Shown here piece after piece: positions 42,551 to 47,307 of a DNA stretch of 64,000 bases. The translations under genes and the position numbers were made by a program. The stretch spans positions 1 through 64,000 of the forward strand of contig JANBPT010000131.1 in assembly GCA_027575765.1 (NCBI GenBank), given 5' to 3'. The first letter of the stretch is position 1; the number at the start of each line of letters is the position of its first letter. The stretch is from Tieghemiomyces parasiticus. Taxonomy: Eukaryota > Kickxellomycota > Dimargaritomycetes > Dimargaritales > Dimargaritaceae. The notes beneath the pieces were generated by a model, which was given only the letters and a program-made list of their open reading frames with translations, did not search any database and had not been told where the DNA came from.

Positions 42551-45500
42551 TTAGGCAACGCCAAGGACCTTCTTGAGGCGCACAATCAGTGCCCACTCCT
42601 CCTTAGACACGTCCTTACGGAACGACTCCTTGAGCACATCGATGGACCCGCGGCTGATGAGGGAATAAATGTCCTGCTTCTCGGTGAAGTGGCGGCCGTA
42701 CATCTTGGCCGTCTCGTACACGGGGCATTCAATCTTGATGGCGACGCCGCCGGCGGCCTGCCCCTTCTTGACCATATCCAGCGACTTGTGGTTCTGCTCG
42801 ATACTGGTCACCTTGCCGAGGGGCACGACGGTGTGGGTCTTGGTCTCGGGGTCCTCCTCAACTACACACACGGGGGTACCCGTGCGCAGGGCTCCTTCGA
42901 TAACGTCCACACCAATCACGATAGGCTCGCGCTTATTAAAGATCGCACCTGGGATCATGCGCAGCACGCAGGGGAACACCGCCGCCGGGGCCTGGTCCTT
43001 GCGCTTCTGCTCAGTGATCGAGGCCGAGTAGGCCTTAAACTGGTCGAACAGGTGGTAGATAATCTCGGCCGTGAACACACGGACGCCCAGTTCCTGCGCC
43101 AGCTCCATGGCGTCGCGATCCACCTTGACGTCGAAGCAGAGCATCACGGCGTACTCCTTGGCCCGCTCCAGCATGGTGGCGGCACGGATTACGTCGCGCT
43201 TGAACACCGGTCCAATGTTGATGCCGGAAACCGGGATCTCCGACGTGCGCAGGAATTCCAGCAGAGCCTCCAGGGAGCCCAGGGTCGAGGCCTGCACGTA
43301 TACGCCCTTGTCCACCTTGCGGATCGAGTTGAGCATGTTCTCCAGGTCTTCCATCACCAGTTCCTCAAGGTCCTCCTCGTCATCATCAGGGCCGACCACC
43401 AGGAGGCGCGACCCAGCGATGGCCTTCTCCAGGTCCGGTGCGCAGATCTTGACGCCCATGGCGGCCTTGATGGACTTGTGGTGCACGTAGGCTGACTTGA
43501 CGCGCAGTTCGCGAAGGGGCTGCGGGGTGAGCAGAGCCCGCACGTTGGTGGTGATGGGTCCATTCAGACCGCACACGACGATGCGGTCGCCTTCGTTCAA
43601 CACGCCGTTGGACAGGACCACATCAATGGTAGTACCCAGGCCCTCGATCACCTTGACCTCGAGCACCGTGCACTCCAGCTCGGATAGGTACATGAGCTTC
43701 TCTGTCATACGGGACTGGGTCAAGCTGACCAGCAGGAGCAGCAGGTCTGGGATACCCTCCCCGCTGTGCGCCGACGTGGGCACCAGGGACACGTACTTAC
43801 CCAGGTTCTTGTTCTTGTAGTACAGACAGGAGTTGAGCCCCTGCTCGGCGAAGGCCAGGATGGTGGCCTCTACGCGGCTCTCAAACTCGCGCTGGACGGC
43901 CGCGGTCTGCTTCGCCAAGCTGTCACGGAAGGGGTTGTCCGGAACTGGTTGCCATCCGTAGAGCCGGTCGATCTTGTTGAGGGCCACGATGAAGGGCGTC
44001 TTGCGGTCCCGCAGCAAGCGAATCGATTCCAGGGTCTGGGGTTCGAGGCCGTGCATAATGTCCACCACCAGGATGGCAATGTTACACAACGACGACCCAC
44101 GGGAGCGCAGGTTGGTGAACGACTCGTGGCCGGGGGTATCAATGACGAGCAGTCCGGGCACTTTGTACTCGACCTTGCCACTGGCGTTGAGCTTGGCCGT
44201 CTTGGCCTTAATGGCATCCATTGGGAAGTAGGTGGCGCCGATCTGCTGCGTGATCCCACCGGCTTCGCCCTCCTGGACGTTGGTCTGGCGGATCTTGTCC
44301 AGCAGCTTGGTGTTGTGAGTGACCGTCAAACTGGACAGCAGGAACCGGTGGTTGTCATCGACGCAGAACCCGTAGTAGGCATCTTCCTGGAGCTTGGTGA
44401 TCCGCACGGACCAATTGCGCACGTCGACCGGGTTACCCGGCGGGATGGTGGCCGCGATAGTGGCAGCAAAATCGGCGGACCGGTAGGGCAGGTCCACGAG
44501 GGCCGTGCCGGCCACCGTGCACCAGTCAAAGGTCGTCGACGGGGCCGCGAGAGCTTCGCCCTCCTCGCGCGCCGCCCGGGCGGTCAGACCCGCGGCGCGG
44601 AGCAGGGTGGCTAAGCGAGCGGCCCGTTCGGTGGGGACCCCGCGGATGGGTACCCGCACCCCCGCGACGGGCGTGACCACGGCGACGGCTTCGAGGTAAC
44701 CGGCAATGAACGGGCGACGCACTTTAGTGGCATTTCCCCACTGGGCTAGGTCCAGGAGCTCCATGTAGCTGTGGCCGGCTAGGGCGCGCATCGCCTTGGG
44801 GTAGGCCTCGGTGATGGCCACGTAGGCCGGCGGAGCGGGCCGGTGGGCATTCACCAGGCTCACTTCGTCCTCGGGTGTGGTCGCCTCGGCCCCGCTGTCT
44901 ATGTCGTTCCCTCCACGACGGAACCAGCGCGCGGCGCCGAAGGCGTAACCAGTGGCCCAGGCTAGATCTTCCAGGCCCTGATCATTGATGTCCGAGGTCC
45001 CGGGCAGGGTGCGGACCAGGTCGGCAAACGGGGCGCGCGGGTGGGCGGCCGTGACGGTTTCTGGGTGGTACATGCGGGCGCGAGCCTGCACGCTTTCCGG
45101 GGCGGCCACAAAGGTGGTCACGCTGGGCTGCCACAGGTGGCGGGCGTGGAAGCTCCGCAGCCCCGTGGCAAAGTGTTCGGCGGCCTGGGCGGCGAGGGCC
45201 ACGTCAGCGTACTCCTCGCTCGGGTACGGGAAGGTTGCGGTGCGCTCGAGGAAGGTGTCTAGATCAGGGCGGGCGGCGCCGCCGTCCTCTTCGGACTCGG
45301 CCCCCGGAGCGAACTCGAGGTAGTCCACTTCGTAGACGCCCGTGGGGGCCTCGCCAGCCGTGTGGCTAGCGTGTCGGACCGTGACGGCGTCAGTCACTTG
45401 GAGCACCAGGATGTGGGCATCATTGCACACGAAGCCGCGGACTAAGGTGGCTGGGTCGGCAGCGTCGATGCGGAACATAGGGCCGTGGCCACGGGTGGTG

Positions 45501-47307
45501 CCCGTGACCAGGCGCGGGGTCCCGTCGTCGCCCAGTACGTAGTCGCCGTCGGTGATGGTCTCCACGGCGCGCACGGTACCGTCTGCCATCAGAATCTCAG
45601 TGCCCAGGCCGAAACACTTACCCGTGTCGACATGGCCCAGGATACAACAAATGGGGGAGCGCAGATCCTCGGCACTGCGGGCGGCCAAGGCCTCCTCGTG
45701 GCGCTTCTCGCGACGCTGGGCGGCCTCCTGCTTGCGCCGCTGAGCCTCTCGCTCGGCGGCCGTGGCCTCCTCGTCTGAGTCGGAGTCATCATCCGAGTCT
45801 TCGTCGTCGGAATCCTCGGCTGATCCCTCACCCTCTTCCTTGACCTCGGGCTCGGGTTCCGGGTCGCTCTCCAATAGCTTTTCCCAATCATCTTCGTCGT
45901 CGTCGTCTTCCGCGGCTGCAGGGGTTTCGACCGGTGGAGTGGGAGTGACCGCCAGGCCCTTGAGGGATTCGGTTACGGCCTCGGTTTCGGAGGCACCCTT
46001 ACCCTTGTTTTTACGCTTGCTGTAGCTGGCTTTCTTGCCCTTGCCCGAACTGGTGCCCCCCGACTCTTGCAGGCCGGCGACCTGAACGCCCGAATCGAGT
46101 AGCTGCTGCAGGCGAGCCTGGGCACGCTTCTGGGCCTCCTTCTGGGACTTAGTGAGCAGCTTGCCCTCCTTGCGTAGCTGCTCCTTCCGTGCCTGTGAGG
46201 TATTCCGGAGATGGTGGGGGTAGTGAGGGTAAGTTTGAAATGGACCGTTAGTTGTGAGCAGCCGATATCGCATTCGTTCGCTCAGTCGGCTCTGGTCATG
46301 TCGCCTGGGCTAGCTGCGTCTATCGGCCGGGTGCTGTCCGGTAGCGCTACTTACCCGGTCAGCCTCTTTCTTGGCGGCCTCGGCCTCAGCAGCCAGGCGC
46401 TCTTCTTCTTCAAGGCGTCGCTCCTCTTCTTCGATCAGCCGCCGTTCCTCTTCTTGCCGGAGACGTTCTTCCTCCTCGGCTGCCTTGCGTGCCTCTACCA
46501 GCTTTTGCAGCGCACTGATATTGGCGTTCTTCTTTTTGGGCTTGGTGGTCTTCTTCTCGGCCGAAGGAGCCGAGGTGGCGACCGGGGCGGCGGCGGGGGC
46601 GGGAACCGGGGTCGGTTCGGCCCTCGCCTTGCCCTTTCCTTTGGCTTTACTCTTGGGTTCGGACGCGGGCGCGGCGGGCGGGGGCACCTCCTCGTCAAGG
46701 TTGACATACGGGTCCTCGTAGTCGTCCCGCTTGCCCTTCTTGCCCTTGCCCTTCTTCTTGCCCGCCGCAGGGGTCGGAATGGGCTCCTCCTCTTCCGCCT
46801 CTTCCTCGTCAGCGGCCGGTGGCGGTGGGACCTCCTCGTCGAGGTTAGCGTAGGGGTCCTCGTAGTCGTAGTCGTCCCGCCGGCTCTTCTTTCCCTTGCC
46901 TTTCTTCTTCCCACCCACAGGCTCAGGGACGGGCTCCTCCGCCTCGACTTCGGGCTCGTCCGCCAGGACCAGCTTGTTCTTTTTCTTAGTCTTCTTGTTT
47001 TTTGAGCGGTTCATGATACCCATGAGACCGGCGTCCTCCTCTCCGGAGGGGACATCGGCGGCTGCGAGCTCCACTGGGGTGGCCTCGACCAGCGCTTGGT
47101 CGTTCTCAAACTCGTTGTCCCTGCGACGATGGTAGGTGTTGCGAACGGCGGGTTCGGTGGAGGGAGGGTGAGTCTCCAGATGGGAGTAGGTGGGGTTCCC
47201 AGTGTACTAAAGGACTGCACTGAGTCGGGATCCGGCTCCTGGGGCAGGCGTGATGTGACTTACCAATAATCATCTTGGGCCTTCTTTCCTCCCTTCTTCT
47301 TACCCAT
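42551..47307 (-). CDS. FUN12: Translation initiation factor eIF5B precursor with intein
   Basis: Three exons: 47307-47264, 47120-46355, 46192-42551; introns 143 and 162 nt; 1483 codons, of which 435 are an intein, leaving a 1048-residue factor (yeast Fun12 is about 1000). The start [22 protein letters not shown] matches the family N terminus. Residues to about 440 are a charged Lys/Glu-rich region with a tandem repeat. The G domain starts [14 protein letters not shown], is interrupted after Lys462, and resumes with [35 protein letters not shown] and [11 protein letters not shown]. Domains II-IV follow ([56 protein letters not shown]). eIF5B is the GTPase that joins the 60S subunit to the initiation complex. 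The split lies in the P-loop, so unspliced precursor should not bind GTP. Confidence 0.97.
44312..45616 (-). other. Intein in the eIF5B P-loop, degenerate homing endonuclease
   Basis: 435 in-frame residues (precursor 463-897) between GHVDTGK and TKLLD. Block A is [13 protein letters not shown] with Cys1; the following [16 protein letters not shown] is typical. Block B is [11 protein letters not shown] (62-72), with the His but Asn in place of the usual Thr of TxxH. The C-terminal splicing blocks are [22 protein letters not shown] (414-435), with penultimate His434 and terminal Asn435, and the first residue after the intein is Thr. Thus the Cys1, His-Asn and +1 Thr nucleophile set is complete. 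Between them, two LAGLIDADG-like motifs ([10 protein letters not shown] 221-230, [12 protein letters not shown] 302-313) have lost their acidic catalytic residues. Removing the 1305 nt restores an ordinary GHVDTGKTKLLDK P-loop exactly. Confidence 0.96.
46675..46925 (-). repeat. Tandem repeat in eIF5B N-terminal region
   Basis: Two copies of about 40 codons with the core KKKGKGKK, then [17 protein letters not shown]. Copies differ by a [10 protein letters not shown] versus DYEDPYVN variation and alternate basic and acidic blocks. The DNA copies are diverged, so the duplication is not recent. Confidence 0.7.

Follow-up and report, generated by a model that had tools for sequence, protein, structure and literature searches.

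The first 64,000 nucleotides of contig JANBPT010000131.1 of Tieghemiomyces parasiticus (assembly GCA_027575765.1), referred to here as the window, carry on the minus strand the gene for translation initiation factor eIF5B, whose GTPase domain is interrupted within its P-loop by an in-frame insert with the features of an intein. The mycoparasitic host belongs to the Dimargaritales, Kickxellomycotina, according to NCBI taxonomy. Identification of the interrupted gene as eIF5B, proposed in an initial annotation made from the nucleotide sequence alone, is borne out by Pfam matches to GTP_EFTU, GTP_EFTU_D2, IF-2 and GTP_EFTU_D4, and by an NCBIfam match to PRK04004 (eIF5B/aIF2; E 1.3e-174). The public eIF5B record P0001 is 1483 amino acids long, equal to the total first predicted, is 100% identical over the insert region, and maps onto the window as exons 47263-47307, 46355-47119 and 42554-46192. 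The features of the locus are as follows.

42554..44311, minus strand: C-extein, comprising the remaining eIF5B GTPase and downstream domains (Pfam and NCBIfam matches)
44309..44311, minus strand: +1 Thr, the predicted splicing nucleophile and also the P-loop Thr (direct reading)
44312..45616, minus strand: predicted eIF5B intein of 435 amino acids, in frame, Cys1 to His-Asn with +1 Thr (Pfam PF05203, E 2.7e-24)
44312..44377, minus strand: blocks F and G with penultimate His434 and terminal Asn435, both invariant in 35 aligned rows; they align with the C-terminus of PI-SceI
44678..44716, minus strand: degraded endonuclease block E; acid column is Glu rather than Asp, and PF05204 (Hom_end) is undetected
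44936..44965, minus strand: degraded endonuclease block C; aligned column is Arg, with no acid, in an uncertain register with a local insertion
45401..45433, minus strand: block B with His68, invariant in the 35-row alignment; aligns with the CNATH stretch of PI-SceI
45578..45616, minus strand: block A with nucleophile Cys1; aligns with PI-SceI residues 1-13
45617..45637, minus strand: N-extein half of the P-loop, GHVDTGK (direct reading)
45638..47307, minus strand: N-extein and upstream exons (P0001 mapped onto the window)

The insert occupies 1305 nt, or 435 codons on the minus strand of 44312-45616, is free of stops in the eIF5B frame, and falls exactly at the Lys/Thr bond of the eIF5B P-loop (GHVDTGK/C...HN/TKLLDK). 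Direct reading confirms what had first been described, namely a 435-residue in-frame insertion that begins with Cys, ends in His-Asn and is followed by Thr. Residues 1-434 match Pfam Hom_end_hint (PF05203) with a score of 86.8 bits against a cut-off of 32.1, and among relatives of solved structure the best match is PI-SceI, the VMA1 intein of yeast (E 1.4e-13), to which both ends align. The alignment covers the N- and C-terminal splicing stretches of the VMA1 intein, whose host protein and insertion site differ. Because of the Pfam score, the PI-SceI match and the presence of a second, 96% identical copy in the genome, the insert lies far beyond chance. The class 1 features it possesses are Cys1, the block B His68, His434-Asn435, the +1 Thr and a Hint domain over the cut-off, at a conserved site that is empty in homologues. 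On these sequence features, the best reading is a PI-SceI-like intein of class 1, with a Hom_end_hint domain, inserted at the P-loop Lys/Thr bond of the eIF5B GTPase, and this reading is given a probability of roughly 0.93.

A different explanation would make the 1305 nt a spliceosomal intron whose reading frame is open by chance. The flanking codons GGT AAG TGT include GTAAGT, a good 5' splice consensus, but this donor retains GHVDxGK[TS] with none of the 21 in-frame acceptors on contig C345 and none of the 18 on contig C489, the contigs of the two copies compared. Enumeration of GT-AG, GC-AG and AT-AC pairs likewise restored GHVDTGKTKLLD in 0 of 12684 cases on C345 and 0 of 12447 on C489. 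Stop-free GHVDTGKS arises from 8 pairs on C345 and 4 on C489, with intein residues remaining in all but one per copy; that single GT-AG pair excises the whole intein in frame, yet it also removes conserved extein from TKLLDK up to GGITQQ. Excision at the exact boundaries would give an intron with ends TG..AC, with no sliding possible even by one base, and the insert evolves as a protein and carries the full Hint profile match. Gene models that lack most of the intein in an intron-like manner, P0037 of Dimargaris cristalligena and P0106 of Coemansia spiralis, do speak for an intron, but its probability is practically negligible, and an RNA intron is rejected because the enumerated boundaries never restore the host frame and the P-loop with its flank. 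Removal of the insert from RNA, the outcome that the initial annotation had set against its own claim, is thus unlikely. Because public models such as P0037 and P0106 leave out most of the eIF5B intein, counts of inteins based on annotated proteins may be too low.

The genome searched comprises 46.5 Mb in 1363 contigs, and the second eIF5B copy, with the same intein, lies on contig C489, where the aligned DNA around and including the gene is 93-95% identical to that of C345. Only two full-length matches to the C-extein were found, each intein-bearing; an intein-free eIF5B, sought by means of the C-extein, yielded just eight weaker partial matches beyond the two copies, the best of which (47% identity over 120 residues) lie on C591 and C330. 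Between the copies, the intein has accumulated 33.5 synonymous and 18.5 non-synonymous changes (dN/dS 0.18; neutral chance 3e-9), with a dN/dS of 0.16 across its central 300 residues. The N-extein part of exon 3 has a dN/dS of 0.05, and in the C-extein all 40 changes are synonymous, with none non-synonymous. The insert codes for protein and is under purifying selection.

When compared with other fungal proteins, as had been suggested at the outset, the insert proves to have same-site counterparts in Kickxellomycotina, Glomeromycotina, Mucorales, Blastocladiomycota and Batrachochytrium. A search for the intein/extein junction returned 47 matches among 55 candidates, and both junctions lie at the same Lys/Thr bond in 38 of the 48 eIF5B proteins examined, which constitute the intein set; in the public models of the other ten, at least one junction is missing. 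Carriers are found in Dimargaritales, Kickxellales (mostly Coemansia), Glomeromycotina, Mucorales (Benjaminiella and Cokeromyces), Sorochytrium and Batrachochytrium dendrobatidis, together with P0071 and P0051, the latter fungal judging from its position beside Umbelopsis on the host-gene tree. Identity across the intein between T. parasiticus and its four best matches from other species is 33-37%. A search with the C-extein, in which 8000 candidates were scored and 120 of 2899 proteins were listed, contributed 99 new relatives. Among these listed matches, 93 of the 99 have an uninterrupted GHVDTGKTKLLD, including Basidiobolus, Smittium and Furculomyces; of the remaining six, P0079 has an empty site that differs by one substitution, three (P0084, P0114 and P0157) are labelled with the Pfam family of the intein, P0106 has the start of an intein, and P0155 fits neither pattern.

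Presence and absence were followed on a host-gene tree of hand-chosen rows (29 of 32 with an intein and 21 of 24 empty), from which both Dimargaris, Cetraspora, two Smittium and Furculomyces are missing. The intein trait changes at least six times on this tree, with five of the changes forced by starred branches. The inteins themselves, in trees of 28 of the 38 with Coemansia thinned, fall into two lineages separated with 100/100 support, and the split is the same without either long row. Lineage I (8 rows) includes Dimargaritales, Mycoemilia and Glomeromycotina, and lineage II (20 rows) includes Coemansia, Mucorales, Sorochytrium, Batrachochytrium, P0051 and P0071. Intein data reject a grouping of Mycoemilia with Coemansia (p-AU 2.4e-5) and of both with Dimargaritales (p-AU 4e-6), and host-gene data reject lineage I as a single group (p-AU 0.004), although the groups were chosen after the trees had been seen and the p values are therefore optimistic; support from the host gene for placing Mycoemilia with Coemansia is only 83. 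Horizontal transfer, or an ancient duplicate followed by differential loss, would explain this conflict alike.

Two side observations concern the host proteins. The first ~410 residues of P0003 (Dispira simplex) are membrane-protein-like and absent from four other models read, so that this part is probably a fused gene model. The eIF5B exteins of two Dimargaris species, P0004 and P0038, have a very long branch (0.85) relative to Tieghemiomyces and Dispira.

PI-SceI is of the Hom_end_hint type and is an active endonuclease, whereas the T. parasiticus intein appears to have lost a catalytic acid. In the columns that hold the catalytic acids of LAGLIDADG enzymes, it possesses Arg (block C, where the register is uncertain) and Glu (block E, in contrast to the Asp of Rhizophagus and Funneliformis). 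Acids are present at both blocks, as taken here to mark an active LAGLIDADG enzyme, in 4 of the 38 eIF5B inteins, including those of Sorochytrium and the metagenomic P0051, and the T. parasiticus intein is not among the four. The Pfam scan did not detect the endonuclease domain Hom_end (PF05204) in the insert, nor did it list this domain for the inteins of Dispira simplex and Mycoemilia; in Rhizophagus clarus, Benjaminiella and Sorochytrium the PF05204 score exceeds the cut-off, and in Batrachochytrium it falls slightly short. Judged from these sequences, the homing endonuclease looks dead, and the intein is probably immobile now. Continued homing would be in keeping with the patchy distribution of the family and its at least six presence/absence changes, with the retention of both acids in a few members, and with constraint on the central domain. 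It is nonetheless very unlikely for T. parasiticus, given the residues in its acid columns, the undetected PF05204, and the occupation of both eIF5B copies, which leaves no empty target seen in the genome. More plausibly, the element would have spread earlier between fungal lineages by homing, with endonuclease decay to follow, and it may persist now because only an exact deletion at the conserved site would be tolerated.

Several points weigh against this account of a spliced, immobile intein carried by every eIF5B gene. The two copies are haplotype-like, judging from their DNA identity, but homeologs are possible, and the assembly may be incomplete, so that an intein-free copy could be absent from it. 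The last 45 residues of the intein have a dN/dS of 0.93, although this value derives from just 4 changes. Finally, constraint on the central domain in spite of a dead-looking endonuclease is unexplained by simple endonuclease decay.

In class 1 chemistry, Cys1 forms a thioester that is attacked by the +1 residue, the terminal Asn cyclises, and the exteins are ligated. Applied to eIF5B, Cys1 would form the thioester and the P-loop Thr would attack it, after which Asn435 would cyclise and the two halves of eIF5B would become joined; GTP binding would be possible only once splicing was complete. The initial annotation went further, holding that all eIF5B must be spliced, and this fits the genome insofar as both full-length copies bear the intein, with splicing itself predicted from intein chemistry. 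A more elaborate possibility is that the intein has been retained as a switch that makes translation initiation wait for a cue, redox or otherwise. Such a role would be in keeping with Cys1, with Cys64, a nearly invariant block B residue, and with purifying selection that extends beyond the splicing blocks, and conditional splicing has been described for mycobacterial DnaB (PMC7360933). Yet an obligatory self-splicer would show constraint anyway, and the empty site is tolerated by the 93 of 99 further relatives noted above, so that conditional splicing of the eIF5B intein seems unlikely.

The same bond is also occupied in prokaryotes. The pattern GHVDHGKC occurs in 90 stretches of prokaryotic genomes, and at 35 of the 80 loci examined (L028-L107) an HN/[TS] junction precedes an IF2-like continuation; according to record titles, 34 of these are archaeal and one, L056, is bacterial (Candidatus Uhrbacteria). 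A few of the other loci resemble chance matches, and many have NIGTA or NIGTS before GHVDHGKC, which we take to be the start of aIF2-gamma, with Cys after GHVDHGK. The identical bond (GHVDHGK/C...HN/[TS]) raises the possibility that the fungal intein descended from archaeal same-site IF2 inteins, a reading that might also draw on a weak, partial profile match of lineage II to long prokaryotic inteins (E 5.1e-5; lineage I, E 2.6e-4). However, all five of the 35 prokaryotic inteins that were scanned belong to PF14890 rather than PF05203 (with LAGLIDADG_3 in four), and PF14890 is absent among the Pfam matches of the T. parasiticus insert. Both fungal-prokaryotic profile matches are partial, leaving the N-terminal splicing block uncovered, and are far weaker than that of lineage I to lineage II (6.3e-59); the lineage I profile matches PRP8 intein 5 at 8.9e-26. 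The T. parasiticus intein thus has neither the PF14890-type Hint nor the full-length profile similarity of the archaeal IF2 family, and archaeal descent, highly improbable on Hint family and profile evidence, is rejected despite the identical site. The mention in the initial annotation of archaeal IF2 inteins at a P-loop holds for the bond, but those examined represent another Hint family. Independent arrival at one conserved bond, or convergent targeting, appears from these comparisons to be a better reading than shared descent.

The only other inteins found in the T. parasiticus genome with PF05203, PF14890, TIGR01443 and TIGR01445 are in PRP8, although unmodelled or intron-split types could remain. 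PRP8 is a single open frame of 4376 amino acids with five in-frame inteins in both copies, located in the genome (G000) as follows.

C1124, 5214-18341 (L022 and L023): PRP8 copy
C269, 752-13879 (L024 and L025): PRP8 copy

The inteins are 459, 429, 284, 399 and 450 amino acids long, amounting on C1124 to 2021 amino acids of intein as compared to 2355 of extein, and between the copies each has a dN/dS of 0.16-0.35, as opposed to 0.03 for the extein. All except intein 1 attain the cut-off for PF05203 and so share this family with the eIF5B intein, although hosts and sites differ; intein 1 has a PF14890-type Hint, slightly below the cut-off for that family and above that of TIGR01445. Inteins 2 and 5 lie near the eIF5B lineages in the tree, on long branches. 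A union of lineages I and II relative to six PRP8 inteins, four of the five from T. parasiticus and two from Geranomyces, is neither shown nor rejected (p-AU 0.546), again with long branches. Three HN/[SC] junctions in P0006, a piece of PRP8 from Geranomyces variabilis, indicate that Tieghemiomyces is not alone in having a PRP8 with several inteins. Green et al. (2018, PMC5784728) give six intein sites in PRP8 across all eukaryotes. An unlikely but broader proposal is that the P-loop Lys/Thr bond acts as a cross-domain intein magnet, with independent prokaryotic and perhaps two fungal arrivals, and that in T. parasiticus, with five inteins in PRP8 and a sixth in eIF5B, both pre-mRNA splicing and translation initiation would hinge on protein splicing, which might serve as a shared stress-sensitive switch.

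Spiromyces aspiralis, like T. parasiticus, belongs to the Kickxellomycotina. Because an RPB2 intein of S. aspiralis was described in 2006 (PMC1635734), inteins are not new to this group. Nor is the eIF5B intein a new kind, because Table 1 of Green et al. (2018, PMC5784728) lists three IF2/eIF5B inteins for Chytridiomycota and Glomeromycota, in agreement with the initial annotation that one had been catalogued from a chytrid, although they are not confined to one chytrid. These share the host protein, and the same bond is occupied in P0075 (B. dendrobatidis), P0047 (Rhizophagus) and P0041/P0043 (Funneliformis), which may correspond to the listed entries; T. parasiticus adds another host order, Dimargaritales. 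The Hint-domain passages of PMC8778642 contain no such eIF5B intein. A literature term search, with subscription papers and InBase outside its scope, found no description of an eIF5B intein from Dimargaritales or Coemansia, nor of the two-lineage conflict or the bond shared with prokaryotic IF2.

The survey enlarges what had been a catalogue item of three entries to a populous family that poses a clear evolutionary puzzle, in which two deep lineages occupy one bond in conflict with the host tree, and another intein family is found there in archaea and one bacterium. Why inteins pick active-site loops is thus a question that is testable with many natural replicates. For T. parasiticus, if splicing occurs, an essential initiation factor would have to pass through an obligatory self-processing step before it could bind GTP.

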